37,015 nucleotides of DNA. Origin: Pseudomonadota bacterium. GTDB lineage: Bacteria > Pseudomonadota > Gammaproteobacteria > Burkholderiales > Burkholderiaceae_C. The stretch lies in NCBI GenBank assembly GCA_021841865.1, contig JAKCDM010000007.1:21716-58730 (forward strand), in the 5' to 3' direction. Of the stretch, positions 7,252-25,564 are shown piece by piece. Every line of letters starts with the position of its first letter. The stretch's first letter is position 1. The notes under the pieces were generated by a model, which did no database searches, had not been told where the DNA came from, and saw only the letters and a list, made by a program, of their open reading frames with translations. The position numbers and the translations under genes are program-made.

Positions 7252-8451
7252 ATGAACAAGGTCGCGAACGCAGGAACCATGCTGGTGGCGGGCGGAGGCA
7301 TCGGCGGCCTGGCCGCGGCGCTGGCGCTGGCCCGGCGCGGGTTCTCGGTCAAGGTGCTCGAGCAGTCGCCGCAGATCGGGGAGATCGGCGCCGGAATCCA
7401 GCTCGGGCCGAACGCCTTCAACGCGCTCGACGCGCTCGGCGTCGGCGAGCGCGCGCGTGCGCGCGCCGTCTACACCGACTGCATGGTGATGCACGACGCC
7501 ATCGATGGTTCGCTGGTCGGGCGAATTCCCACCGGTGCGGAGTTCCTCGAACGTTTCGGCAACCCCTACGCGGTGATCCACCGCGTGGACATCCACGGCT
7601 CGCTGCTCGAGGGCGTGCAGCAAAGCCGCGACGTCGAGCTGCTGACCTCGACCCGCATCGAGCGCGTCGAGCAGGATGAAAGCGGCGTGTCGGTGACCGA
7701 CCAGCATGGCAAGGTGCATCGCGGCGACGCGCTGATCGGCGCCGACGGAGTCAAGTCCGTGGTGCGCGAGGCCTACGTGGGCGACCCGGCAAGGGTCACC
7801 GGCCACGTCGTGTATCGCGCCGTGGTCGACCGCAACGAGTTCCCGGCCGACCTGCAGTGGAACGCCGCCAGCATCTGGGTCGGCCCCAACTGCCACCTGG
7901 TGCATTACCCGCTGCGCGGTGGAGAGCAGTACAACGTCGTGGTCACCTTCCACAGTCGCCAGCAGGAGCAGTGGGGCGTCACCGAAGGAAGCCGAGACGA
8001 AGTGCAGAGTTACTTCCAGGAGGTGTGCCCGCAGGCGCGCCAGCTCATCGACATGCCCAAGAGCTGGAAGCGCTGGGCGACCGCCGACCGCGAGCCCATC
8101 GGCACCTGGAGCTTCGGTCGCGTGACCCTGCTGGGAGACGCCGCGCATCCGACCACGCAATACATGGCCCAGGGCGCCTGCATGGCCATCGAGGACGCGG
8201 TGACCCTGGGCGAGGCGCTGCGCGAGCACGACAACGCCATCGCGCCGGCCTTCGAGCTGTACCAGCGCTCGCGCGTCGCGCGCACCGCGCGCATCGTGCT
8301 GTCCAGCCGCGAAATGGGGCGTATCTATCACGCCAAGGGGGTCGAGCGCCTGGTGCGCAACGACCTCTGGAAGGGCCGCAGCACCCAGGGCTTCTACGAC
8401 GCCATGCAATGGCTGTACGGCTGGCGCATCGACAACTGCCTCGCCCGTTGA
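7252..8451 (+). CDS. nagX: FAD-dependent 3-hydroxybenzoate 6-hydroxylase
   Basis: Group A flavoprotein monooxygenase of 399 residues. It is predicted to hydroxylate 3-hydroxybenzoate to gentisate with NAD(P)H and O2 in the cytoplasm. Features: Rossmann GxGxxG (G14-G16-G19) with ALALARRGFSVKVLEQ, the GADG motif near residue 160, and a C-terminal FAD-ribityl motif GD (295-296) in LLGDAAHPTTQYMAQGACMAIEDA. The sequence resembles NagX/XlnD/MhbM proteins. Salicylate 1-hydroxylase is the main alternative by family. It is disfavoured because the next three genes form a complete gentisate pathway and no catechol-cleavage gene is present. A very strong Shine-Dalgarno lies at 7241-7249. Likely first gene of a four-gene operon under the upstream palindrome. 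Confidence 0.87.
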   Translation: MNKVANAGTMLVAGGGIGGLAAALALARRGFSVKVLEQSPQIGEIGAGIQLGPNAFNALDALGVGERARARAVYTDCMVMHDAIDGSLVGRIPTGAEFLERFGNPYAVIHRVDIHGSLLEGVQQSRDVELLTSTRIERVEQDESGVSVTDQHGKVHRGDALIGADGVKSVVREAYVGDPARVTGHVVYRAVVDRNEFPADLQWNAASIWVGPNCHLVHYPLRGGEQYNVVVTFHSRQQEQWGVTEGSRDEVQSYFQEVCPQARQLIDMPKSWKRWATADREPIGTWSFGRVTLLGDAAHPTTQYMAQGACMAIEDAVTLGEALREHDNAIAPAFELYQRSRVARTARIVLSSREMGRIYHAKGVERLVRNDLWKGRSTQGFYDAMQWLYGWRIDNCLAR

Positions 8452-8529
8452 CCGAGCGGCCCTGGCCGACCCGCACCCCGGGCGCCAGGGCTTTCGCCTG
8501 TTCTCCCCCCACCGCCTGAAGGACCCCCG

Positions 8530-9237
8530 ATGAGCTCCGCCACCTATCTCTGGACCCCGCCGCGCACGCCGTCGGCCGCAGTGCGCGGCCGCGCCGAGCG
8601 AGCCCCCGTCAACCGCCTGTTCTTCGTCGGGCGCAACTACCACGCCCATGCCGCCGAGATGGGGCGCCCGGTCGACAAGTCGGTCGAGCAGCCCTTTTAC
8701 TTCACCAAGTCGCCGTCCACGCTGGTCGAGTCGGGCGCCACGGTGCCGTATCCGCCGCGCAGCTCCAACTACCACTACGAGATGGAGCTGGTGGTGCTCA
8801 TCGGCAAGCCAGGCTTTCGCGTGGCCGAGGCGCAGGCGCACGAGCTGATCCACGGCTACGCCTGCGGCCTGGACATGACCCGCCGCGACCTGCAGCTGGC
8901 GGCGCGCGACAAGGGCCGGCCCTGGGATACCGGCAAGGACATCGAGCACGGCTCGGTGCTGTCGGAGATCGTGCCGATGCCCGGCGTGGTGATCGAGCGC
9001 GGGGCCATCGAGCTGCGGGTCAACGGCCAGGTGCGCCAGAACTCCGACGTGGACAAGCTGATCTGGAACATCCGCGAACTGATCGCCGACCTGTCGACCC
9101 TGTACCACCTGCAGCCGGGCGACCTGATCTACACCGGCACCCCCGAGGGAGTCGGGCCGGTGCAGCCCGGCGACCGCCTCGAGGGCAGCGTGGCGGGAGT
9201 GGGCGAGATCGCGCTGAGCGTCGGCGCGCCCGAATGA
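8530..9237 (+). CDS. nagK: Fumarylpyruvate hydrolase (FAH family)
   Basis: 235-residue member of the fumarylacetoacetate hydrolase C-terminal-domain family. It cleaves fumarylpyruvate to fumarate and pyruvate, the last step of the GSH-dependent gentisate route. Visible family elements are FFVGRNYHAHAAEMG, FTKSPSTLV, the metal-ligand segment HYEMELVVLIG (two Glu), the later Asp in GYACGLDMTRRDLQ, and the C-terminal TGTPEGVGPVQPGD. GAAGGA is positioned upstream of the ATG. Its TGA at 9235-9237 overlaps an in-frame ATG that could also start the next gene. Neighbouring genes fix the substrate as fumarylpyruvate rather than acylpyruvates in general. Confidence 0.9.
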   Translation: MSSATYLWTPPRTPSAAVRGRAERAPVNRLFFVGRNYHAHAAEMGRPVDKSVEQPFYFTKSPSTLVESGATVPYPPRSSNYHYEMELVVLIGKPGFRVAEAQAHELIHGYACGLDMTRRDLQLAARDKGRPWDTGKDIEHGSVLSEIVPMPGVVIERGAIELRVNGQVRQNSDVDKLIWNIRELIADLSTLYHLQPGDLIYTGTPEGVGPVQPGDRLEGSVAGVGEIALSVGAPE

Positions 9238-11738: not shown

Positions 11739-12227
11739 ATGACACAGGCAACGTCTGTGGCGCCGCGCAGGGGCGCCATCCAGGGCAATATCGTGGCGCG
11801 ACTGTGGGGCATCGCCGAATGCGTGCTCGACTGGCTGCGCTCACCGGCACTGCTCGCGGCGCGGCTGTACGTGTCGTACGTGTTCTTCAACTCCGGGTTG
11901 CAGAGCCTGCGCGACTGGGCGGGCACGGTTTGGCTGTACCAGAACGAGTTCCACGTCGCCGTGCTGCCTCCCCACGTGGCGGCGGTGGTCGGCACGGCGG
12001 GGGAACTGCTGTTGCCTCCGCTGGTCGCCTTCGGCCTGCTCGGGCGCTTCGGCGCGGTGGGGCTGTTCGTGGTGAACCTGGTGGCGCTGCTGTCCTACAT
12101 GTACGCGCTGCAGGTGCCTGCGATCATGTTTCACTTCATCTGGGGCGGGCTGATCCTGATGATCGCGTTGTGGGGCCCCGGGGCCTGGTCGGTCGACGCC
12201 TGGCGCCTGGCGCGCCGCGACCGCTGA
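11739..12227 (+). CDS. DoxX-like membrane protein
   Basis: 162-residue inner-membrane protein with a short hydrophilic N terminus and about four hydrophobic helices. It includes the family-typical segment LLAARLYVSYVFFNSGLQSLRDW and a later GTAGELLLPPLVAFGLLGRFGA. DoxX/SURF4-like proteins are often found with thiol-redox or oxidative-stress genes, but their biochemical role is mostly unknown. CGAGGAGAG lies just before the ATG. It starts a unit with an MFS transporter 10 bp downstream. The promoter-like motif shared with the ArsS and DsrE units lies 66-92 bp upstream, which links it to that cluster. Confidence 0.8.
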   Translation: MTQATSVAPRRGAIQGNIVARLWGIAECVLDWLRSPALLAARLYVSYVFFNSGLQSLRDWAGTVWLYQNEFHVAVLPPHVAAVVGTAGELLLPPLVAFGLLGRFGAVGLFVVNLVALLSYMYALQVPAIMFHFIWGGLILMIALWGPGAWSVDAWRLARRDR

Positions 12228-16224: not shown

Positions 16225-16803
16225 ATGACCCAAGCCATCGCCCGACTCGACCTGCCGGCGCAGACCGTCGCTTCCACCAGCGGCAAGGCGCGCGAGATGC
16301 TCGAGACCTCGCAGCGCAACCTCGGTTTCGTGCCGAACATGTACGCCAACATGGTCAACTCGCCCGGGGTGCTGCAGACCTACCTGCTCGGTTACGAGGC
16401 GTTCCGCAACGAAGGCGGCTTCACCCCGCCCGAGCAGGAAGTCGTGTTCCTCAGCATCAGCCGCTTCAACGGCTGCACCTATTGCATGGCCGCGCACAGC
16501 ATGATCGGCGACAAGATGTCCAAGCTCCCGGCGGACTCGCTGGCCGCGCTGCGCGAAGGCAAGCCCCTGCCCGACGCCAGGCTGCAGGCCCTGGCGACCT
16601 TCTCCACCATCATGGTGGAAAGCCGCGGCACGCCGACGCCCGAGCAGCTCGCGGCTTTCAAGGCCGCCGGCTACACCGACCGCCATGCGCTGGAAATCGT
16701 GCTGGCGATCGCTGTGAAGACCCTGAGCAACTACTCCAACCACATGTTCCACACCCAGACCGATGCGGCCTTCCAGGGCTACGCCTGGAATCGCGCGGCC
16801 TGA
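16225..16803 (+). CDS. Carboxymuconolactone decarboxylase/AhpD-family protein
   Basis: 192-residue protein of the CMD fold with the peroxidase-type redox motif C84-T-Y-C87-x-x-x-H91 in FNGCTYCMAAHSMIG, as in AhpD-like alkylhydroperoxidases. The N terminus (MLETSQRNLGFVPNMYANM) and helical core also fit. It probably reduces peroxides or another oxidant with thiol chemistry. The exact substrate is not predictable. The ATG at 16225 follows a CGGAGAA ribosome site. It lies 90 bp after tetR and shares its operator-like sequence with the dehI-tetR region, suggesting that DehI homologue and CMD protein are induced together. Confidence 0.88.
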   Translation: MTQAIARLDLPAQTVASTSGKAREMLETSQRNLGFVPNMYANMVNSPGVLQTYLLGYEAFRNEGGFTPPEQEVVFLSISRFNGCTYCMAAHSMIGDKMSKLPADSLAALREGKPLPDARLQALATFSTIMVESRGTPTPEQLAAFKAAGYTDRHALEIVLAIAVKTLSNYSNHMFHTQTDAAFQGYAWNRAA

Positions 16804-16979: not shown

Positions 16980-17462
16980 ATGCATTCCTTCAAGTCGACT
17001 GTCCTTGCCGTCGCCGCCGCTGCCGGGCTGATGCTGGCGGCCACCGCGCCGGCGCGCGCCGACTACGTGCAACCGCACATCACCCACCCGGCCTTCGGGC
17101 GCGTGCGCGTGGTCGTTCCGGTGAGCAGCGCCGATCCCGCGGTGTGGAAATTCAAGCTGCTGAACCTGGTCAACAGCGAGAAGACCGTCAAGCAATGGCA
17201 CGGCACGCTGCAGGCGCATGTGGTGCTGTACGGCGGCGGGGTCAAGATGCTGCTGGAGCCGGTGGACGACGGCGTGAAAAAGGCCGTCGACGAACTGCGC
17301 GCAGAAGGCGTGCATTTCGACATCTGCAACAACACCCTCAAGGGCATGAACCTGGACTGGCACCAGCTCTACGGTGTCAAGGAAGGCGACATCGTGCCCG
17401 CCGGCTTCCTGCAGGTCGGCTGGCTGGCCAACCACGGCTGGGCCGTCGAGGCGATGAACTGA
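16980..17462 (+). CDS. Exported DsrE/DsrF-like protein
   Basis: 160 residues with a clear signal peptide (MHSFKSTVLAVAAAAGLML..., probable cleavage after ARA near residue 27), so it acts in the periplasm. The mature part matches secreted DsrE-family proteins: RVRVVVPVSSADPAVWKFKLLNLVN, AHVVLYGGGVKMLLE, and FDICNNTLKGMNLDWHQLYGV with one conserved Cys, ending GFLQVGWLANHGWAVEAMN. DsrE-fold proteins commonly handle sulfur or other chalcogens on a Cys. GGAG lies 7 bases before this ATG. An in-phase ATG at 16869 also has GAAGGAG before it but would destroy the signal peptide. First gene of a unit with a membrane protein and the MTA-phosphorylase homologue, preceded by the shared promoter-like motif. 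Confidence 0.85.
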   Translation: MHSFKSTVLAVAAAAGLMLAATAPARADYVQPHITHPAFGRVRVVVPVSSADPAVWKFKLLNLVNSEKTVKQWHGTLQAHVVLYGGGVKMLLEPVDDGVKKAVDELRAEGVHFDICNNTLKGMNLDWHQLYGVKEGDIVPAGFLQVGWLANHGWAVEAMN

Positions 17463-17464
17463 GC

Positions 17465-18406
17465 ATGCGCTTCGAGCGTGCGCGCGGCGAGGCGCTTGCC
17501 ACGGCCCTGGTGGCCGTGGCCGCGCTGGGCGCGCGCATCAGCGGCGTCGACACGCTGATGTTCCCGGAACTGGGGGCGCTGGCGCACGATGTGTTCACGC
17601 GCCCCCAGGGAGCCTGGGCTCGCGCGCCGCTGCACCTGGCACTCACCCCGGCGCTGGCCGCGCTGATCGGGCTCGGCCTGGCGCGCTGGCTGCCGCCGGG
17701 CCTGCCGGCGCTGGCGCTGAGCCTGGGCAGTTCGCTGTTGCTGCTGGGCCTGCTGCGCTCGCCGCTGGCGCCGGCGATTTCCGCCGGGCTGCTGCCGGTG
17801 GCGCTGCGCGTGCGAAGCCCCTGGTATCCGGCATCGATCCTGCTGGTGACCGCGACGCTGGCCGGCGCGGCGTGGCTGCGCGCTGCCTTGCGCCGCGGCC
17901 CGCAGCAACCCGCCGACGCGCAATCGCGCATCGACGACCAGACAGAGACCGCCGCCAGCGGCTGGCGCTGGCTCGCAGGCTACGCGCTGTTCGCGCTGCT
18001 CGCCGGGGTGTTCGCGCAGGCCTGGCACATGTTGCTGGTCCCGCCGCTGTTCGTCGTTGCCTACGAGATGTTCGCGCACCCCGACGTGTGCCCGTGGCGC
18101 TCGCGCCCCTGGGCGCTGCTGACGGCGTGTGTCGCAGGCGCCGCGTGCGGCGTCGCGGCCGTGGCGTGGCTGGGTGCCGGGCCGCTGTCGGCCGCCGCCA
18201 GCCTGCTCGTCGGCGTGCTGATCGTGCGCGCCCTCGACCTGCATGTGCCTCCGGCGCTGGCCATCGGCCTGCTTCCGCAGATCCTGCCGCGTCCGGGATG
18301 GCACTTCGTCGCATCGGTCGCGCTGCTGTGCGCATGGCTGGTGCTCAGTTTCGCGCTCGCGAGCTTCACGTCGCGGCGCATGTCCATGATGAGGAGACCG
18401 GCATGA
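17465..18406 (+). CDS. Multipass membrane protein, possibly HPP-like
   Basis: 313 residues with roughly eight to ten hydrophobic helices in two halves separated by a hydrophilic linker (RRGPQQPADAQSRIDDQTETAAS, residues about 140-163). Early segments MFPELGALAHDVFTRPQG and LAPAISAGLLPVALRVRSPWYP recall HPP-type membrane proteins, and the LxPxxS pattern suggests a transporter-like channel. I am not certain of the family. It begins 2 bases after the dsrE stop, and its own TGA overlaps the ATG of the phosphorylase gene, so it is firmly in this operon. It may move a pathway precursor or product, but the sequence gives no direct evidence of a substrate. Confidence 0.65.
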   Translation: MRFERARGEALATALVAVAALGARISGVDTLMFPELGALAHDVFTRPQGAWARAPLHLALTPALAALIGLGLARWLPPGLPALALSLGSSLLLLGLLRSPLAPAISAGLLPVALRVRSPWYPASILLVTATLAGAAWLRAALRRGPQQPADAQSRIDDQTETAASGWRWLAGYALFALLAGVFAQAWHMLLVPPLFVVAYEMFAHPDVCPWRSRPWALLTACVAGAACGVAAVAWLGAGPLSAAASLLVGVLIVRALDLHVPPALAIGLLPQILPRPGWHFVASVALLCAWLVLSFALASFTSRRMSMMRRPA

Positions 18407-19272
18407 ACCCCCCGAGCGAGCGCATCGGCATCCTGGGCGGAAGCGGGCTGTATGAGTTCGAGGGCCTCGCCGATGTCGTCGAGCACGCGCTCGACACCCC
18501 CTACGGCAAGCCCTCCGACGTGATCGTCACCGGGCGCCTGGGATCGGCGCAGGTCGCCTTCCTGGCGCGCCATGGCCGCGGCCATCGGCTGATTCCCTCC
18601 GAGGTTCCGTACCGGGCCAACCTGTACGCGCTCAAGAGCCTGGGGGTGCGAACCCTGCTGGCGATCTCGGCCGTGGGCTCGCTGCGCGAGCCCATCGCGC
18701 CTCTCGACCTGGTGCTTCCCGACCAGTTCCTGGACCTGACGCGCAAGCGCGAGTCCACGTTCTTCGGCGACGGAGTCGTCGCCCATGTGGCGATGGCCGA
18801 GCCGACCTGCGCTGCGCTGCGCCAGCGCGTGGCGCAGGCCTTCGAGTCCGTGGCCCTGCCCGGCGCGCAACTGCACCGATCGGCGACCTATGCCTGCATC
18901 GAGGGGCCGGCGTTCTCGACGCGGGCCGAATCCGCGATGCTGCGAACCCTCGGAGCCGACATCGTCGGCATGACCAACATGCCCGAGGCCCGCCTGGCGC
19001 GCGAGGCGCAGATCGCCTACGCCACGCTGGCCCTGGTCACCGACTACGACTGCTGGGATGCCGCGCGCGAGCCGGTCAGCGCCGAGCTGGCGATCGCCAA
19101 CCTGATGCGCAACGCCGCGGCGGCGCAGCGCATCGCCGCCGCGCTGATCCAGGACCTGCATGCGCAGCCGTTGCAGTCCGACGCCCATCGATGCCTGCGC
19201 AGTGCGCTGGTGACTCCGCTCGACAAGCTGAGCCCCGCGCAGCGAGAGCGCGTGGACATGCTGCTGCGCTGA
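18403..19272 (+). CDS. mtnP: 5'-methylthioadenosine phosphorylase homologue (PNP/MTAP family)
   Basis: 289 residues, close to human MTAP in length and sequence. GGSGLY (12-17) is the phosphate loop, followed by LDTPYGKPSD, ARHGRGHRLIPSEVPYRANL, ISAVGSLREPI, IEGPAFSTRAES (166-177) and MTNMPEA (190-196). T-D-Y-D-C-W (213-218) supplies the two Asp residues that select adenine over hypoxanthine or guanine. The family cleaves 5'-deoxy-5'-substituted adenosines with phosphate, giving adenine and a 5-substituted ribose 1-phosphate. No other methionine-salvage genes are nearby. Instead it directly precedes an ArsS-type radical SAM gene whose known product is a 5'-deoxyadenosyl arsenical. It may therefore act on that adduct rather than, or besides, methylthioadenosine (inference). 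Translation is coupled to the membrane protein (ATGA), with GAGGAG upstream. Confidence 0.9.
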   Translation: MNPPSERIGILGGSGLYEFEGLADVVEHALDTPYGKPSDVIVTGRLGSAQVAFLARHGRGHRLIPSEVPYRANLYALKSLGVRTLLAISAVGSLREPIAPLDLVLPDQFLDLTRKRESTFFGDGVVAHVAMAEPTCAALRQRVAQAFESVALPGAQLHRSATYACIEGPAFSTRAESAMLRTLGADIVGMTNMPEARLAREAQIAYATLALVTDYDCWDAAREPVSAELAIANLMRNAAAAQRIAAALIQDLHAQPLQSDAHRCLRSALVTPLDKLSPAQRERVDMLLR

Positions 19273-19284
19273 GCGTCCCTGCGC

Positions 19285-19311
19285 TGTCAGGATTTCCCCG
19301 CCCCGTCCGAC
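19285..19311 (+). promoter_or_regulatory. Repeated promoter-like motif, copy 3 (before arsS)
   Basis: TGTCAGGATTTCCCC then GTCCGAC, with 18 bases between TGTCA and CGAC (17 in the other two copies). It sits between the phosphorylase stop and the ArsS start, ending 50 bp before the ATG, so arsS can be transcribed independently of the upstream operon. It shares TGTCAGGA, a CCC run, and CCGAC with copy 2. Confidence 0.65.
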
Positions 19312-19361
19312 CAAGAACCATCGGCGGCCCGGCGGGCCGCCCGCCGACCGGAGATCCACCG

Positions 19362-20366
19362 ATGCACTCCACCGTCCATTTGTTGCGCAAGACCGACTTT
19401 CCGGCGATCCGGCGCCGCACGCTGCGCACCTTGCAGGTCAACCTGGGCTACCGCTGCAACCAGAGCTGCCAGCACTGCCACGTCAACGCCGGCCCGCATC
19501 GCACCGAGGCGCTGGACGCCGACAACGCGCAGTTGATCGTGCAACTGCTGCGCCGCGGCGGCATCCAGACCCTGGACCTGACCGGCGGCGCGCCCGAACT
19601 CAACCCGCATTTCCGCATGCTGGTGGCGCAGGCCCGCTCCAGCGGCGTGCGCGTGATCGACCGCTGCAATCTCAGCATCCTGTTCGAGCCGGGGCAGCAG
19701 GACCTGGCGGACTTTCTCGCCGAGCAGCGGGTCGACATCACCGCGTCGCTGCCCTGCTACACCGAGGACAACGTCGACGCGCAGCGCGGCGACGGGGTGT
19801 TCGAGAAAAGCATCCACGCGCTGCAGTGGCTCAACCGGCTCGGCTACGGCGACCCCGACAGCGGCCTGGCGCTGGACCTGGTCTACAACCCGCTCGGCCC
19901 GCACCTGCCGCCTCCGCAGAGCCGGCTCGAGGCGGACTACAAGCGCCTGCTCGGCGAGCGCTACGGCATCGTGTTCAACCGGCTGCTGACCATCGCCAAC
20001 ATGCCCATCCAGCGCTTCGGAAGCACGCTGGTGTCCAAGGGCCAGTTCGACGACTACATGGCGCTGCTGCGCGCCAGCCACCGCGACGACAACCTCGACG
20101 CGGTGATGTGCCGCGACACGGTGTCGGTGGACTGGCAGGGATACCTGTTCGACTGCGACTTCCACCAGATGCTCGGCCTTCCGCTGGGCGCGCGCGGCGC
20201 CGCCGGCCAGCCGGCCCGACCGCACCTGCGCGACCTGCTCGCAGCCCCCGACGCACTGACCGGGCAGCCGATCACGGTGGCCGCGCACTGCTACGGCTGC
20301 ACGGCGGGGCAGGGCAGCAGCTGCGGCGGTGCGCTGAACGCGTCGAACCCCGCCGTGGCTGCCTGA
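19362..20366 (+). CDS. arsS: ArsS-type radical SAM/Cys-rich protein
   Basis: 334-residue radical SAM enzyme. The [4Fe-4S] ligands are C32-x3-C36-x2-C39 in GYRCNQSCQHCHVNAGP, followed by the TGGAPE SAM-binding motif and NLSILFEPGQ. A C-terminal Cys-rich tail has C310-x2-C313 and C321 in HCYGCTAGQGSSCGGA, the region where some relatives carry selenocysteine. Here it is all cysteine, with no in-frame TGA. Characterised ArsS uses the 5'-deoxyadenosyl radical to attach deoxyadenosine to a dimethylated arsenical in arsenosugar synthesis. No ArsM methyltransferase is encoded in the window, so the acceptor here is open. Neighbours on both sides fit further processing of a deoxyadenosyl adduct. CGGAG is upstream of the ATG. 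Confidence 0.9.
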   Translation: MHSTVHLLRKTDFPAIRRRTLRTLQVNLGYRCNQSCQHCHVNAGPHRTEALDADNAQLIVQLLRRGGIQTLDLTGGAPELNPHFRMLVAQARSSGVRVIDRCNLSILFEPGQQDLADFLAEQRVDITASLPCYTEDNVDAQRGDGVFEKSIHALQWLNRLGYGDPDSGLALDLVYNPLGPHLPPPQSRLEADYKRLLGERYGIVFNRLLTIANMPIQRFGSTLVSKGQFDDYMALLRASHRDDNLDAVMCRDTVSVDWQGYLFDCDFHQMLGLPLGARGAAGQPARPHLRDLLAAPDALTGQPITVAAHCYGCTAGQGSSCGGALNASNPAVAA

Positions 20367-20378
20367 GGTACTGACGTG

Positions 20379-22553
20379 ATGGGTGCTTCCGCTCGTTCGC
20401 CGCAGTACCGGACGGTGCGCATCCTGCTGGCGTTGGCCCTCGTCGCGGCGGCGGCGGCCGCGATCGCAAGCCTGCCGCACGGCGCGTCGGGCCTGGGCGA
20501 ACTGCACCAGCGGCTGGGCCAGCTGCGCGCGCAGCGTGCCGGGCATCCGTTCGAGTTCGCAGCAAGCTTTTTCGCCTTGTACGTTGCCGTTGCCGCGTTG
20601 TCGGTACCCGCCGCGGCGCTGTTCACCCTGGCGGCGGGCGCCTTGTTCGGGCTCTGGCAGGGCATCTTGCTGGTTTCCTTCGCGTCCGCTGCCGGCGCCA
20701 CGCTGGCCTTTGCCTCTGCCCGCTGGATTCTCGCGCCCTGGGTACGCGAGCGCCTGGGTGCGAAGCTGGCTGCGATCAACTCCGGGGTGCGGCGCGACGG
20801 CGCCTTCTACCTGTTCGGCATGCGCCTGGTGCCGGTTTTCCCCTTTTTCGTGATCAACCTGGCGATGGGCCTGACCGAAATGCCCGCGCGGCGTTTCTAT
20901 TGGGTCAGCCAGCTCGGCATGCTTCCGGCTACCGTGATCTACGTCGGGGCCGGAACCCGGCTTGCGCAGATCCACGACCTGCGCTCCATCGCCTCGCCGT
21001 CGCTGTGGCTGGTGCTGGCGCTGCTCGGCGCGCTGCCGCTGGCCGCCCGCGGGGTGTTGCGCCGCATCGACTCGGCGCGTCGCCTGGCGCGCTGGCCGCG
21101 GCCCAGGCGCTTCGAGCGCAACGTGGTGGTGATCGGCGCCGGCGCGGCCGGACTGGTCGCCTCCTACGTCGCCGCCGCCGCCAAGGCGCGGGTCACGCTG
21201 GTCGAGTCGGGCGCGATGGGCGGCGACTGCCTCAACACCGGCTGCGTGCCGTCGAAGGCGCTGCTGCACGTCGCGCGCAGCGTGCACGCGATGCGTCACG
21301 CCGCCGAACTGGGCCTGCGCGTCACGCCGCCGGTGGTGGATTTCGCCGCGGTGATGGCCCGCGTGCGCGAGGTCGTAGCCGAGGTCGCGCCGCACGACTC
21401 GGTCGAGCGTTACACCCAACTGGGCGTTGAGGTGCTGCGCGGACGCGCGCGCATCACGTCGCCGTGGACGGTGCGGGTCGATGGCGATGGCGGTGTGGTG
21501 GAGCTGAGCACGCGCTCGATCGTGGTCGCCGCCGGCGCCAGGCCGCTGGTGCCGCCGATCCCCGGGCTCGACGAGGTGGGCTACCTGACCTCCGACACCG
21601 TGTGGGACCTGCGCGAGCTTCCCCGCCGCCTGCTGGTGCTCGGCGGCGGACCCATAGGCTGCGAGCTGGCCCAGGCCTTCGCGCGCCTGGGCAGCCAGGT
21701 CACGCTGATGGAAATGCAAGCTCGCATTCTGCTTCGCGAGGACGCCGACGTGGCCGAGCAGGTCGCGGCCGCGCTGCGCGCCGACGGTGTCGAGCTGCTG
21801 ACCGGGCACAAGGCGCTGCGGGCGCGCATCGAGGCCGGCGAGCGGCGCATGCTGGCGCAGGGTCCCGCTGGCGACACGGAGTTCGGCTTCGACGTGCTGC
21901 TGTGCGCGCTGGGCCGGGTGGCGCGCACCCAGGGCTACGGGCTCGAGGAGCTCGGCGTCGCGCTGCGTGGCAACGGCACCGTGCAGGCCGATGCCGCGCT
22001 GCGCACCAGCATTCCCAACCTCTACGTGTGCGGTGACGTCACCGGCCCGTTGCAGTTCACCCATGTCGCGGCACATCAGGCGTGGACCGCGTCGTTCAAC
22101 GCGCTGCTGGACGGCTGGTGGAGCCTGAAGTCGGACCTTTCGGTCATTCCGTGGACCACCTTCACCGACCCCGAGGTCGCGCGCGTCGGGCTGAGTGAGG
22201 ACGAGGCTCGCGCCAGGGGCATCGAGTTCGAGCTCACGCGCCATGAACTCGCCGAGCTCGACCGCGCCATCGCTGAAGGTGCCACCGGCGGTTTCGTCAA
22301 GGTGCTGACAGCGCCGGGCAAGGACCGCATCCTGGGTGCGGTGATCGTCGGCGCGCACGCCGGGGAACTGCTGGCCGAATTCGTGCTGGCGATGCGCAAG
22401 GGCCTGGGATTGAGCGCCATCCTGGGAACGGTGCATGCCTACCCGACCTGGAGCGAAGCCGCGCGCGCGACGGCCGGGGCCTGGAAGCGCGGCCACGTCT
22501 CGCCCCGGCTGTTGCGCTGGAGCGAAGGATTCTTCGCATGGCGCCGCCGATGA
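20379..22553 (+). CDS. TVP38/TMEM64 membrane domain fused to a mercuric-reductase-like flavoprotein
   Basis: 724-residue fusion. Residues about 10-230 form a DedA-like TVP38/TMEM64 membrane domain (VAALSVPAAALFTLAAGALFGLWQG, FYLFGMRLVPVFPFFVINLAMG, YVGAGTRLAQI). From about 245 a class I pyridine-nucleotide disulfide oxidoreductase follows: FAD GxGxxG starting at G253, redox pair C284/C289 in GDCLNTGCVPSKALL, NAD-binding LVLGGGPIGCELA, second FAD motif NLYVCGDVTG, and dimer-interface HAYPTWSEA. It lacks the N-terminal HMA domain and C-terminal Cys pair of true mercuric reductase, so it should not be called MerA. A membrane-anchored thiol, arsenic or selenium reductase role in this cluster is plausible. 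The ATG at 20379 is preferred; a GTG at 20376 adds one residue. It lies 12 bp after arsS. Confidence 0.85.
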   Translation: MGASARSPQYRTVRILLALALVAAAAAAIASLPHGASGLGELHQRLGQLRAQRAGHPFEFAASFFALYVAVAALSVPAAALFTLAAGALFGLWQGILLVSFASAAGATLAFASARWILAPWVRERLGAKLAAINSGVRRDGAFYLFGMRLVPVFPFFVINLAMGLTEMPARRFYWVSQLGMLPATVIYVGAGTRLAQIHDLRSIASPSLWLVLALLGALPLAARGVLRRIDSARRLARWPRPRRFERNVVVIGAGAAGLVASYVAAAAKARVTLVESGAMGGDCLNTGCVPSKALLHVARSVHAMRHAAELGLRVTPPVVDFAAVMARVREVVAEVAPHDSVERYTQLGVEVLRGRARITSPWTVRVDGDGGVVELSTRSIVVAAGARPLVPPIPGLDEVGYLTSDTVWDLRELPRRLLVLGGGPIGCELAQAFARLGSQVTLMEMQARILLREDADVAEQVAAALRADGVELLTGHKALRARIEAGERRMLAQGPAGDTEFGFDVLLCALGRVARTQGYGLEELGVALRGNGTVQADAALRTSIPNLYVCGDVTGPLQFTHVAAHQAWTASFNALLDGWWSLKSDLSVIPWTTFTDPEVARVGLSEDEARARGIEFELTRHELAELDRAIAEGATGGFVKVLTAPGKDRILGAVIVGAHAGELLAEFVLAMRKGLGLSAILGTVHAYPTWSEAARATAGAWKRGHVSPRLLRWSEGFFAWRRR

Positions 22554-23254
22554 GCTGCCAGCAGACCTGGGCTCAGCGTCTGGCCATCGTCGTTCCCATG
22601 CGCAACGAGGCGGCGGTGCTGGAGCCGGCGCTGGCGCGCCTGCAGGAACTGCGCGATGCAGGTGTCGAGCTCATCGTGGTCGACGGCCAGAGCGACGACG
22701 ACAGCGCGCGGCGGGCGCGAGCACTGGCCGATCGCGTGCTGCGCTCGCCCGCCGGGCGCGCGTTGCAGATGAATGCCGGCGCGGCGGCCACCGACAGGCC
22801 GCTGCTGCTGTTCCTGCATATCGACACCGAATTGCCGGCCGGCGCGGTTCCCGCATTGCTGGCCGCGCTCGACGGCGGCTTCGACTGGGGGCGTTTCGAC
22901 GTCGCCATCGAACCGGCCACTCCGCTGCTCCGGCTGGTGGCCGCGATGATGAACCTGCGCTCGCGCGCAAGTGGCATCTGCACCGGAGATCAGGCCCTGT
23001 TCATGCGCCGCGAAGCCTTCGACGCGGTTGGTGGCTTCCCCCGCCAGGACCTGATGGAGGACATCGAGATCAGCTGCCGCCTGCGTCGGCTCGGCCGCCC
23101 GGCCTGCCTGCCGCTGCGCGTGCGCACCTCGTCGCGGCGCTGGATGCGCCACGGCGTCGTGCGCACGGTGCTGCTGATGTGGTGGCTGCGCCTGCGCTAC
23201 GCGCTGGGGGCCGAGCCGTCCGCGCTGGCGCGTCTGTACCGCGAGGCACGCTGA
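22538..23254 (+). CDS. rSAM-associated GT2-type glycosyltransferase (TIGR04283-like)
   Basis: 238-residue family 2 glycosyltransferase. N-terminal LAIVVPMRNEAAVLEPAL, nucleotide-binding VELIVVDGQSDDDSARRA, an LHIDTELP segment in the DxD position, SGICTGDQALFMRREAF, and FPRQDLMEDIEISCRLRR with the acceptor-site ED. This matches the family described as transferase 2 associated with ArsS-type radical SAM proteins. It would transfer the modified sugar to an aglycone such as glycerol (known for arsenosugars generally, inferred here). The ATG at 22538 overlaps the previous gene by 16 bp and has AAGGA eight bases upstream. An ATG at 22550 is an alternative without a ribosome site. Confidence 0.87.
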   Translation: MAPPMSCQQTWAQRLAIVVPMRNEAAVLEPALARLQELRDAGVELIVVDGQSDDDSARRARALADRVLRSPAGRALQMNAGAAATDRPLLLFLHIDTELPAGAVPALLAALDGGFDWGRFDVAIEPATPLLRLVAAMMNLRSRASGICTGDQALFMRREAFDAVGGFPRQDLMEDIEISCRLRRLGRPACLPLRVRTSSRRWMRHGVVRTVLLMWWLRLRYALGAEPSALARLYREAR

Positions 23255-23256
23255 CC

Positions 23257-23898
23257 ATGGACCACACCGCGCTGCTGGTGTTCGCCAAGCCCCCGCTGGC
23301 GGGCCTGGCCAAGACCCGGCTGATTCCGGCGCTCGGCGCGGCGGGCGCCGCGCGCCTGGCCGCGGCGCTGCTGGAACACACGTTGCGCCAGGCGTCGGGC
23401 GCGGACCTGGGCGCCTTGTGGCTCTACGGCACGGAGCGCCACCCGCTGCTCGCGCGCGCGGCCGCCCGGCATGGCGCGCGGCGCAGGTTGCAGCGCGGCG
23501 CCGACCTCGGCGAGCGCATGGCGCAGGCGCTGCAGCGCAGCTGCCGCGAAGCCCCGGGCGCGCTGCTGCTCGGTGCCGACTGTCCGGCGCTCGACGCGGC
23601 CTGCCTGCGCCGCGCCGCGCTCGCGTTGCGGCAGGCCGACGTGGTGTTCGTGCCGGCACTCGATGGCGGATTCGCGCTGGTCGGCTGTCGGGCACCGGCC
23701 GCCGCGGCCATGAGCCGGCTGTTCGCGCACCAGGCCTGGAGCGTTCCCGACGTGATGCAGCGCATGCGCGAAGGGCTTGGCGCACTCGCGCTGCACTGGG
23801 TCGAGCTCGACGCGCTGGCCGACATCGATACCCCGGAAGATCTCGCCGCGCTGCCCGCCGGGATGCGAGACGCCCTGCGATGCGACGCCTGCTGCTGA
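23257..23898 (+). CDS. rSAM-associated CofC/MobA-like transferase (TIGR04282-like, DUF2064)
   Basis: 213 residues with a nucleotidyltransferase-like fold. It has the N-terminal FAKPPLAGLAKTRLIPALG loop (PxxGxxKTRL), GADLGERMAQALQR, LLGADCPAL, the PALDGGFALVG metal-site segment, and ADIDTPEDL at the end. The family is annotated as transferase 1 associated with ArsS-type radical SAM enzymes and is related to CofC and MobA, which move nucleotidyl groups. It could activate a sugar 1-phosphate, giving the donor for the GT2 protein encoded just before it. That division of labour is inference. It starts 2 bases after the GT2 stop codon and overlaps the next gene by 19 bases. Confidence 0.87.
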   Translation: MDHTALLVFAKPPLAGLAKTRLIPALGAAGAARLAAALLEHTLRQASGADLGALWLYGTERHPLLARAAARHGARRRLQRGADLGERMAQALQRSCREAPGALLLGADCPALDAACLRRAALALRQADVVFVPALDGGFALVGCRAPAAAAMSRLFAHQAWSVPDVMQRMREGLGALALHWVELDALADIDTPEDLAALPAGMRDALRCDACC

Positions 23899-24983
23899 TC
23901 GGCGCCGGACACGCGGGCGCCGAGCTGCTGCGGCGCTGGGCCGCCGCGCCGCCGCGCGACGTCGAGCTCACGCTGGTCAGCCCGGACACGCTGGCTGCGT
24001 ATTCGGGCATGGTTCCGGGCTGGCTCGCCGGAGACTACGCCTGGGAGGACTGCTGCATCGACTTCGCCCGTCTCGCTGCCCGTGCGGGAGCGAGCCTGGT
24101 CCTCGATCGCGTGGTCGCGCTCGACACGGGGCGGCGCGAGGTCCTGCTGGCCGGTGGCGCAGTGCTCGGCGCCGACGCGATGGTGTTGAACATCGGATCG
24201 ACCGTTCGCATGCCGCAGGCGCCGGCAGGGTCGGGGCCCTGGCTGCTGCCGACGCGGCCGCTGGCCGCGTTGCACGACGCGGCGCTGGCGCTGGCGTCGG
24301 CGCAGGGGCGGGCGCAGGCCCCTGAACTGGTCGGGGTCGGAGGCGGCGCGGCGGGCATCGAGACCCTGCTGGCGCTGCGCAGACGCTTGCTGCACAGTGG
24401 CGTCGCAGCGCGCTGCACGCTGCTGACCCGCGACGCCGAAGCGCTGCGCAGCCTCAACCCCCGCGCGCGCAGGCTGGCGCATGCCGCGCTGGCGCGGGCC
24501 GCAGTCGTGGTCCGCGGGGGTTTCGACGTGCAGTCCATCGAGCCCGCCGGGCTGCTGGCGCGCGATGGAACATTCCAGGCGGCCGATCTGGTGCTGTGGG
24601 CAGCCGGAGCCGTGGCGCACGCATGGCCGGCGGCCAGTGGGCTGGATGTCGACCCCTCGGGCTTCGTGCGCGTCGACCCGACGCTGCGCTCGACCTCGCA
24701 CCCGTGGCTGTTCGCGGTCGGCGACTGTGCGGCGTTCAGCCCGTCGCTGGCCAAGTCCGGCGTGCATTCGGTGCGCATGGGGCCGGTGCTGGCGCACAAC
24801 GTCGCGGCCGCCTTCGCGGGGTGGGAGCTGCAGGCCTACCGGCCGCGGCGCGATCAGCTGGTACTGCTCAACACCGCGGACGGGCGCGCCATCGCCAGCC
24901 GCGGGCGCTTCGCGGCGGCTGGGCGCTGGGCCATGCGCTGGAAGGATTCGATCGACCGCGGCTTTGTCGAGCGTTACCGCTGA
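23880..24983 (+). CDS. FAD-dependent pyridine nucleotide-disulfide oxidoreductase (SelD N-terminal-like)
   Basis: 367-residue NDH-2-like flavoprotein. N-terminal RLLLIGAGHAGAELLRRW (GxGxxG), a central NAD-binding LVGVGGGAAGIETLLALRRR, and LFAVGDCAAF as the second FAD motif. The SPDTLAAYSGMVPGWLAGDY segment is typical of the family that occurs either alone or as the N-terminal part of SelD (selenide, water dikinase) fusions. The SelD kinase domain itself is absent here. It is last in the arsS unit, overlapping the CofC-like gene by 19 bases. Its 3' end overlaps the convergent unknown gene by 10 bp. It probably supplies reducing equivalents or a reduced metalloid/selenium species to the pathway, which is not shown by sequence. 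Confidence 0.85.
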   Translation: MRRLLLIGAGHAGAELLRRWAAAPPRDVELTLVSPDTLAAYSGMVPGWLAGDYAWEDCCIDFARLAARAGASLVLDRVVALDTGRREVLLAGGAVLGADAMVLNIGSTVRMPQAPAGSGPWLLPTRPLAALHDAALALASAQGRAQAPELVGVGGGAAGIETLLALRRRLLHSGVAARCTLLTRDAEALRSLNPRARRLAHAALARAAVVVRGGFDVQSIEPAGLLARDGTFQAADLVLWAAGAVAHAWPAASGLDVDPSGFVRVDPTLRSTSHPWLFAVGDCAAFSPSLAKSGVHSVRMGPVLAHNVAAAFAGWELQAYRPRRDQLVLLNTADGRAIASRGRFAAAGRWAMRWKDSIDRGFVERYR

Positions 24984-25564
24984 CAGCCTGGCGAGGCAAG
25001 GCCCGGCGCTGGGTCGCTGTCAGTGCCGCGAGTCGAGACGTGGATGTTGTCGAACGACAAGTGGTGCAACCACTCGCGCAGCACGAGCAGACTCGCGGCG
25101 AAATCGGCATCCAGCGGGATCGTGTCCTGGGTGGCCGGCCGGCCGAGCGCGATGGACACCCAGCGGTTGAATCCGTGTTCCACCGCATCGGTGCCCAGGC
25201 AGGCCCCGGCCCCACGCGTCACCCCGAGCGCCTCGGCGATGCGGATCACGCGAGGGTCCGCCGTGACGCATCGCGAATCGCGTGGCACGAGCGGGCGTAG
25301 CGGCATGATGAGCTCCTCGACCTCGGCGATCGCCGCCTCGATCGCGCTTTCGCCGGGCCTGGGTGCGTGGAAGTGCCTGCGCGCCAGCTCGACCACGCCC
25401 AGGTCCAGCCGGATCACCCGCTCGGGCGCGGAGCTCGCGCCGAGCGCCACGGCCGACGCCGTGTCGCCGAGTTCGAGCGCGGTGACGGGCCCGCCCCACT
25501 GCCGGCGCGCCCGCAGCCATGTGGCACGCGCCCTGGCATCGCTGTCGTGGCCGGGGTCGCTCAT
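24974..25564 (-). CDS. Hypothetical protein co-transcribed with the LysR regulator
   Basis: 196-residue soluble protein of a family I do not recognise. Start ATG overlaps the TGA of the LysR gene (ATGA), so it is translated with it. Visible segments are MSDPGHDSDARARATWLRARRQWGG, LDLGVVELARRHFHAPRPGE, EVEELIMPLRPLVP, GAGACLGTDAVEHGFNRW and REWLHHLSFDNIHVSTRG. No signal peptide or membrane helix. Two Cys residues (one each in SRCVT and GACLG) plus several His could form a metal or redox site. It is convergent with the FAD gene and overlaps it by 10 bp. Antisense frames here are less protein-like, so the gene is probably real. Confidence 0.6.
   Translation of the reverse strand: MSDPGHDSDARARATWLRARRQWGGPVTALELGDTASAVALGASSAPERVIRLDLGVVELARRHFHAPRPGESAIEAAIAEVEELIMPLRPLVPRDSRCVTADPRVIRIAEALGVTRGAGACLGTDAVEHGFNRWVSIALGRPATQDTIPLDADFAASLLVLREWLHHLSFDNIHVSTRGTDSDPAPGLASPGCQR

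Follow-up and report, generated by a model that had tools for sequence, protein, structure and literature searches.

A methylthioadenosine phosphorylase homologue as the probable nucleoside phosphorylase of a bacterial ArsS gene cluster

Introduction

Which enzyme removes adenine once ArsS has attached an adenosyl group to arsenic? Arsenosugars are major arsenic forms in edible marine algae (PMC13197290), and the radical S-adenosylmethionine (SAM) enzyme ArsS is reported to adenosylate arsenic on the route to oxo-arsenosugars (PMC12159101). For the early steps of this route, only ArsM and ArsS are named in the available excerpts of the reports considered here (PMC12159101, PMC8552651). The question is raised anew by a stretch of 37,015 nucleotides from a Pseudomonadota bacterium of the order Burkholderiales (assembly GCA_021841865.1, contig JAKCDM010000007.1, positions 21,716 to 58,730 of the forward strand), referred to here as the window. 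In this window, a gene for a homologue of methylthioadenosine (MTA) phosphorylase (MTAP) lies directly before arsS.

That the MTAP homologue belongs to the ArsS pathway, as an earlier annotation of the window made from the sequence alone (the original prediction) had proposed, is well supported by comparative sequence data, because it falls in a clade tied to arsenosugar loci, because the methionine salvage gene mtnA was not found in 30 of 32 genomes with such MTAPs, and because alanine occupies two positions that correspond, by inferred alignment, to contacts of the methylthio-ribose in human MTAP. Taken as a whole, these data are best explained if the protein is the dedicated nucleoside phosphorylase of the pathway, which we consider probable. 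The main idea of the original prediction is thus probably right and better supported than it was from the sequence alone.

The gene cluster around arsS

Gene layout was taken from gene calls and inspection of starts and stops, and families were assigned by NCBIfam and Pfam profile scans. The cluster comprises the following features:

16980-17462, + strand: DsrE-like small protein with an N-terminal signal-like stretch (PF02635, 18.4 bits, below the cut-off of 22.7)
17465-18406, + strand: HPP-type membrane protein (TM_HPP, PF04982, 33.3 against 27.2 bits)
18403-19272, + strand: MTAP homologue (TIGR01694 over the whole protein, 309.7 against a cut-off of 274.85 bits)
19081-19083 and 19090-19092, + strand: codons 227 and 230 of the MTAP homologue, both for alanine
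19362-20366, + strand: ArsS radical SAM enzyme (TIGR04167, 445.1 against a cut-off of 300 bits), with CX3CX2C in the translation
20379-22553 (a GTG start at 20376 is possible), + strand: fusion of a VTT (TVP38-type) membrane domain and a flavoprotein (PF09335, PF07992, PF02852)
22538-23254 (or from 22550), + strand: GT2-like protein, TIGR04283 "arsenosugar biosynthesis glycosyltransferase" (251.4 against a cut-off of 182 bits)
23257-23898, + strand: CofC-like protein, a possible nucleotidyltransferase (TIGR04282, DUF2064; 166.6 against a cut-off of 134 bits)
23880-24983, + strand: FAD oxidoreductase like the N-terminus of SelD fusions (Nterm_to_SelD, TIGR03169, 316.1 against a cut-off of 310 bits)

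The genes named by the original prediction are all present on the + strand, with the MTAP homologue 89 bases before arsS. Their stops and starts had been described as mostly overlapping. This was overstated, as three of the seven junctions overlap (HPP/MTAP by 4 bases, fusion/GT2 by 16 or 4, CofC/SelD-N by 19), but the operon-like packing is real: the gaps measure 2, 9-12 and 2 bases, and the 89 bases between MTAP and arsS are the sole larger one.

ArsS and the TIGR04282 and TIGR04283 proteins all score over their cut-offs, and the locus is filed here as an ArsS cluster rather than as a proven arsenosugar pathway. Since the three families (TIGR04167, TIGR04282, TIGR04283) are already named arsenosugar biosynthesis by NCBI, the pathway label is not new, and the MTAP homologue is the new part.

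Linkage of MTAP genes to arsenosugar clusters

Within the order, ArsS was detected over cut-off in 93 of 300 sampled genomes. The search for MTAP covered 80 of these, the other 13 being left out. In eight of the 80 (the window's genome, G000, and G251, G209, G115, G120, G087, G042 and G298), an MTAP gene is no more than about 12 kb from arsS; for one gene in 4 Mb, chance alone would give about 0.5 such genomes. Identity to the window's MTAP is 44-62% for the linked copies and 29-49% for the 13 unlinked copies that were fetched. By family scoring, one unlinked copy is an S-methyl-5'-thioinosine (MTI) phosphorylase and two are PRK08931-type MTAPs. The survey of arsS neighbourhoods suggested by the original prediction therefore shows a linkage that is conserved across related genomes but confined to a minority of them. 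The idea that mtnP always accompanies arsS is ruled out by the same count.

A second survey started from the MTAP side. With seven close linked MTAPs as query, the best 80 of 588 candidate MTAP loci from species genomes were fetched, and 25 of them belong to the window's clade. At least one arsenosugar-type gene was present in the flank of 24 of these 25 loci, ArsS itself in 22, compared with none of the 55 non-clade loci; both flanks reached at least 9.5 kb in 27 of the 55 and in 21 of the 25, and 28 of the 55 were shortened by contig ends. As for the three clade loci without ArsS nearby, the genomes of two (L070 and L071) have ArsS beyond the fetched stretch. The third (L082) has no ArsS over cut-off in its genome, and its locus holds ArsM, GT2, CofC and flavoprotein genes. 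Eight genomes in the same search have an unlinked MTAP, and two of them (L095, L091) have ArsS elsewhere.

The arrangement of the two genes varies. In 30 loci that have both, counting the window, they point the same way in 13, diverge in 11 and converge in 6. Between 24 bases and 11 kb separate them, and fewer than 400 bases in 15 of the 30. The pairing thus survives rearrangement. On a Burkholderia glumae plasmid, the MTAP gene is followed on the same strand by those for TIGR04283, TIGR04282 and the FAD protein, and arsS lies about 6 kb off on the other strand. This layout connects MTAP with the genes for sugar transfer, not with ArsS itself.

In a maximum-likelihood tree of 94 MTAPs, 32 beta- and gamma-proteobacterial sequences form one clade (bootstrap 100, SH-aLRT 96). 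All but one (L070) carry the arsenosugar label, and cyanobacterial sequences make up the neighbouring branch. The MTAP of locus L044 stands outside the main clade on a long branch. In a second, quicker tree that included plasmid sequences, it was joined to a Cupriavidus plasmid MTAP (99% SH-aLRT, 55% identical), and the B. glumae MTAP branched first in the main clade with modest support (84-85% SH-aLRT). The two joined proteins have a different loop after the adenine-side motif:

L044, 8356-9201: second-lineage MTAP
L172 (Cupriavidus plasmid), 7903-8754: second-lineage MTAP

The Cupriavidus gene starts about 35 bases past the CofC-like match of an arsenosugar cluster. As both proteins come from arsenosugar clusters, a second MTAP lineage shows the same association.

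With respect to plasmids more generally, the MTAP-bearing arsenosugar cluster occurs on plasmids of B. glumae (L171 and others), many of them from rice. Of the 52 plasmid records in which ArsS was detected, 47 are from Burkholderia.

Residues at the 5' side of the active site

The 289 alignment columns were ranked for their power to tell the 32 clade members apart from 57 other MTAPs, without choosing residues beforehand; four MTI phosphorylases and L044 had been left out of the count in advance. Separation was called clean when a residue occurred in at least 90% of sequences inside the clade and at most 10% outside. Just two columns, 230 and 227, show this pattern, and they stand first and fifth in the plain ranking. 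Column 230 is alanine in 32 of 32 clade members and V (42) or I (15) in the 57 others. Column 227 is alanine in 29 of 32, and outside the clade V in 45, I in 6, A in 4, M in 1 and S in 1. After thinning at 75% identity, the separation at column 230 is still perfect (16 of 16 against 0 of 40).

Positions 227 and 230 of the window protein are inferred to correspond, by an offset of 6, to V233 and V236 of human MTAP. The HMMER table pairs residues 6-255 of the window protein with 10-261 of the human one, and D214/D216 were matched to human D220/D222 by their common motif. Both human valines make hydrophobic contact with the methylthio-ribose, and V236 is conserved across the four proteins compared in that report (PMC5738077). 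Two trypanosomatid MTAPs have alanine at the position of V233, and a bulkier hydroxyethylthio analogue is a specific inhibitor of one of them (PMC5738077). At these two inferred 5'-side contacts, where most of the other MTAPs compared here have V or I, the window protein has alanine and alanine.

Among plasmid MTAPs that had not been used before, A230 is present in two of three arsenosugar-linked copies (B. glumae and Acinetobacter, not Cupriavidus) and in none of nine unlinked copies fetched out of 20 unlinked records listed. The B. glumae protein branches first and has V227, which would put V230A before V227A.

Residues of the adenine and phosphate sides are kept: T213, D214 and D216, as well as G12-G15 and R56-H57, are invariant in seven linked MTAPs. 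Their roles are described in part in PMC5738077.

Methionine salvage and 5'-deoxyadenosine

In methionine salvage and in the dihydroxyacetone phosphate shunt, the step catalysed by MtnA comes after that of MTAP. Both routes are outlined in PMC8102628. A search for mtnA (mtnK was not searched) came up empty in 30 of the 32 genomes whose MTAP is arsenosugar-linked, which are those of 31 clade members plus G298. The same search scored over cut-off in eight of 14 control genomes. In the two genomes that do have mtnA, G251 and G115, the gene lies near another MTAP copy, at distances of 1.7 and 0.8 kb, respectively. As 24 of the 32 genomes have no stated completeness, single absences are soft, but the pattern is not, and on the evidence of gene content the arsenosugar-linked MTAPs appear to lie outside methionine salvage.

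The window's genome is a draft of 3.45 Mb in 212 contigs, 92% complete and 5.5% contaminated. It has a single MTAP and one MTA/S-adenosylhomocysteine nucleosidase (MtnN), and mtnA (TIGR00512) was not found in it. A strict role in MTA salvage had been named by the original prediction as the case that would speak against it. The single MTAP does not sit in an operon with mtnA, no mtnA being found (mtnK was not searched).

The best-surviving alternative, which is nonetheless unlikely, is that the MTAP homologue clears 5'-deoxyadenosine or MTA in the vicinity of ArsS, as housekeeping or to relieve inhibition, radical SAM chemistry being a source of 5'-deoxyadenosine. The MtnP of Synechococcus cleaves both compounds, and 5'-deoxyadenosine inhibits radical SAM enzymes (PMC8102628). 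Such a role would also suit the fact that the linked copy is the sole MTAP match in the window's genome, G209, G087 and G042. Nevertheless, with 5'-deoxyadenosine, a molecule smaller than MTA, as the substrate, there would be no advantage in exchanging valine for alanine at both 5'-side contacts. The distribution of mtnA also speaks against clearance, as do the MtnN of the window's genome and the B. glumae plasmid, where MTAP leads the glycosyltransferase genes at a distance from arsS.

Proposed pathway

If the MTAP homologue is instead the nucleoside phosphorylase of the ArsS pathway, the following sequence of reactions may be proposed. ArsS would make a 5'-deoxyadenosyl arsenical. The MTAP homologue would act as a 5'-deoxy-5'-arsinoyl-adenosine phosphorylase that has retained the adenine-side residues and gained a larger 5' pocket. 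With phosphate, it would convert the arsenonucleoside to adenine and 5-deoxy-5-arsinoyl-ribose 1-phosphate. The CofC-like protein could then turn the sugar 1-phosphate into a nucleotide sugar, the GT2 protein could move the sugar to an acceptor to give the arsenosugar, and a metallophosphoesterase-fold protein encoded further upstream might trim phosphate from an intermediate or product.

These last three steps are weaker inferences. For activation and transfer, the case is one of family resemblance and co-occurrence. The nearest solved structure to the CofC-like protein by sequence is 3cgx, a "putative nucleotide-diphospho-sugar transferase" (E 2.2e-14), and the protein scores under the cut-off of the 2-phospho-L-lactate guanylyltransferase family TIGR03552 (62.5 against 105 bits). 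The CofC-like and GT2 proteins are also encoded in clusters that have no linked MTAP; these proteins alone therefore do not demand a sugar 1-phosphate.

Taken together, the data permit a broader, tentative reading to which we give somewhat less than an even chance. In this reading, a new activity, that of arsenonucleoside phosphorylases, arose from at least two MTAP lineages, in the larger of which V230A and then V227A widened the pocket. The resulting arsenoribose 1-phosphate would be activated by the CofC-like protein to a nucleotide arsenosugar and passed on by the GT2 protein, and genomes without ArsM would use the dimethylarsenic of their neighbours. To our knowledge, a nucleotide arsenosugar would be the first arsenic-bearing nucleotide sugar.

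Bacterial arsenic-sugar clusters appear to have taken over and remodelled an MTA-recycling enzyme family. If so, the next enzyme after ArsS would be supplied and the exit of adenine explained, and the "arsenosugar glycosyltransferase" labels would become a testable route via a sugar 1-phosphate. A salvage enzyme would also have been tuned to a different element. A set of genes annotated as mtnP, with that of RsfP, which has a crystal structure, probably among them, may then be wrongly assigned to methionine salvage. A full-text literature search found no paper joining arsenosugar with methylthioadenosine phosphorylase, which is no proof of novelty, as subscription journals were mostly outside its scope. 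In a broader search with mtnP, nucleoside phosphorylase and nucleosidase, the word arsenosugar was absent among the matches listed.

Opposing evidence and the choice of element

Several observations weigh against a phosphorylase dedicated to the ArsS pathway. We know of no measured activity for any member of the clade. For RsfP, the closest relative of solved structure, an enzyme assay is named as future work in the available part of the report (PMC3561333). No linked MTAP is seen in 72 of the 80 ArsS genomes of the order, although breaks between draft contigs may hide some. Furthermore, no MTAP, MTI phosphorylase, PNP or MtnN homologue was found in 20 MTAP-less ArsS loci (other nucleosidase families were not searched), so adenine removal there must be done otherwise or be unneeded. 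The pocket evidence is also uneven. A227 is not universal, the column being V or T in three of the 32 clade members; it leaves the top eight after thinning at 75% identity, and the B. glumae MTAP keeps V227. In the second lineage, residue 230 is I or V, and the Cupriavidus protein has H aligned at 227. A230 itself may stem from one ancestral change and be neutral. An earlier version of the idea, in which both pocket changes are required, was dropped, since A227 is absent from B. glumae and from three clade members, as is A230 from the second lineage.

The source of the methylated arsenical is a further point. ArsM was not found in the window's genome, either with NF008823 (best match 51.2 bits against a cut-off of 263) or with the ArsM of a related cluster as query (best match 32.7 bits), both giving weak partial matches. 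Nor was it found in the metagenome-assembled genomes of the three closest relatives (L064, L065 and L088). The query itself works, as it gave matches of about 600 bits in two of the ten genomes of the search that covered these relatives. That ArsM was merely lost to an incomplete draft is less likely, given that the three relatives were negative too. The original prediction had noted no ArsM in the cluster, which thus extends to the genome and its nearest relatives; its suggestion of a complete pathway was partly for this reason too strong. On the proposed pathway, the cell would need to obtain its methylated arsenical from its surroundings or make it with a methyltransferase that has escaped recognition.

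This situation is common in the order. An ArsM orthologue of at least 490 bits is present in 11 of the 80 ArsS genomes and missing from 69, with weak matches of 75-105 bits in seven more. Most of the sampled ArsS genomes thus seem to be without the methyltransferase expected to supply the ArsS substrate. Either the cells take up methylated arsenic, or the clusters without ArsM make something else.

Accordingly, the cluster could serve another element, for instance selenium, with the phosphorylase acting on a 5'-seleno- or other 5'-substituted adenosine. NCBI names the ArsS family "(seleno)protein", and TIGR03169 is by name the N-terminus of SelD fusions. The genome search for selD, which had been suggested at the outset, found it in the window's genome (415.1 bits), and the lack of ArsM finds there, in the three relatives and in the 69 genomes fits this explanation as well. 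We regard it as improbable, because ArsM is present in 11 of 33 MTAP-carrying loci, including L044, the source of the ArsM query, and because it tracks the linked MTAP. The latter was found in six of the 11 genomes with ArsM and in two of the 69 others (Fisher p 4e-5, relatedness ignored), the window's genome being one of the two.

Linkage by mere descent from a single ancestral MTAP insertion, kept without a function in the pathway, would fit a tree with one main origin and the whole gene orders shared by the closest loci, but is very improbable in view of the linkage persisting through three gene layouts over several families, the second lineage with the same association and the position of the two cleanest clade-defining columns at 5'-side contacts.

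Comparison with known systems

A dedicated phosphorylase of the ArsS pathway can be set against several described systems. The arsenosugar biosynthesis of Synechocystis by SsArsM and SsArsS (PMC12159101, PMC8552651) is matched by the window in ArsS over cut-off and in TIGR04282/TIGR04283. In contrast to that system, the window's cluster includes an MTAP-type phosphorylase, and no ArsM was found in its genome. With the MtnP of methionine salvage (TIGR01694), the window protein shares a whole-protein match over cut-off and the adenine-side T-D-x-D motif. It differs by A227 and A230 in place of V or I, and its linked relatives differ by the distribution of mtnA described above.

FlB may be regarded as a close parallel for the removal of adenine by a phosphorylase of the cluster. 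It phosphorolyses 5'-fluoro-5'-deoxyadenosine in the fluorinase/fluorometabolite cluster (PMC8694150, PMC3999930). In both cases, a nucleoside phosphorylase would be clustered with an enzyme that places a foreign element on C5' of a SAM-derived adenosyl group. The element proposed for the window is arsenic, not fluorine, the enzyme is a radical SAM enzyme, not a fluorinase, and the likeness is drawn at the level of function.

Among solved structures, the closest to the window's MTAP homologue is that of RsfP, an MTAP-like protein from Antarctic soil DNA (PDB 4glf and 4glj; E 1.4e-99). It has alanine at both aligned positions, 227 and 230, and was studied for the binding of rhodamine B within the active cleft (PMC3561333).

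MTI phosphorylase (PRK09136) occurs in the same order and belongs to the same fold family. An unlinked copy in an ArsS genome (L050 in G069) scores over its cut-off, and the unlinked copies L053-L055 align with it. These copies have N-x-A-A-G where the window's MTAP has T-D-x-D. With this exchange, a preference for 6-oxopurines is expected.

Wider cluster and neighbouring genes

The cluster is probably wider than 16980-24983 and extends upstream on the same strand. The candidate members and a further neighbour are:

11757-12227, + strand: DoxX family protein (PF07681), in 3 of 33 MTAP-carrying loci (89% identical in L088) and 40% identical in the B. glumae locus L171
12238-13614, + strand: MFS transporter, 90% identical in L088 (1 of 33 MTAP-carrying loci) and 68% in the B. 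glumae arsenosugar locus L171
13611-14642, + strand: metallophosphoesterase-fold protein (AlphaFold2 model, pLDDT 90.8; Foldseek match to 3qfn, E 2.6e-10, TM 0.53 by query length)
16225-16803, + strand: carboxymuconolactone decarboxylase (CMD)/peroxidase-related protein (TIGR01926 70.2, below the cut-off of 81.8; PF02627 25.7 against 23)

The metallophosphoesterase-fold protein is a probable member. It has no match among Pfam or NCBIfam families, and its best match in the PDB is the Ap4A hydrolase/phosphodiesterase SapH (3qfn). Homologues recur beside arsS in 12 of the 20 MTAP-less loci (L148-L167) and in 6 of the 33 MTAP-carrying loci. The MFS transporter is also a probable member, the DoxX protein a possible one. 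The order DoxX, MFS, metallophosphoesterase is the same in the close relative L088, and homologues are present in the arsenosugar locus of the B. glumae plasmid.

Between the metallophosphoesterase and DsrE-like genes, the window has a DehI-like gene on the opposite strand, a TetR regulator and the CMD protein. These three are missing from that position in L088, where about 75 bases separate the end of the phosphoesterase gene from the DsrE-like gene. Homologues of the CMD protein were found in 5 of the 33 MTAP-carrying loci and in none of the 20 others at the score used.

Within the cluster itself, the DsrE-like gene was found in three of the 33 MTAP-carrying loci, namely those of the three closest relatives, and in none of the 20 MTAP-less loci. 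Among the loci compared it is thus specific to this lineage. The name DsrE is reasonable but unproven for this protein, whose relatives supplied just three near-identical sequences. The HPP-type membrane protein has a 48% identical homologue in the arsenosugar locus of the B. glumae plasmid. The flavoprotein part of the VTT fusion, with its Pyr_redox domains, resembles MerA/lipoamide dehydrogenase. Homologues of the VTT-flavoprotein, fused or not, are present in 18 of the 20 MTAP-less and 23 of the 33 MTAP-carrying loci.

Other genes recur around ArsS elsewhere. DUF547 and DUF3047 proteins are found in several of the loci L038-L044, L148-L167, L171 and L173, and some of these loci also have a sigma-70 family factor, a zf-HC2 protein, CcdA and thioredoxin. 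At the downstream end of the window's cluster, an open reading frame at 24974-25564 on the - strand shares ten bases with the end of the flavoprotein gene and gives a weak Ppx/GppA match (15.4 bits, below cut-off). Further upstream, the protein encoded at 7252-8451 is a 3-hydroxybenzoate 6-monooxygenase (688.6 against 459 bits), so this part of the window may be devoted to the breakdown of aromatic compounds.

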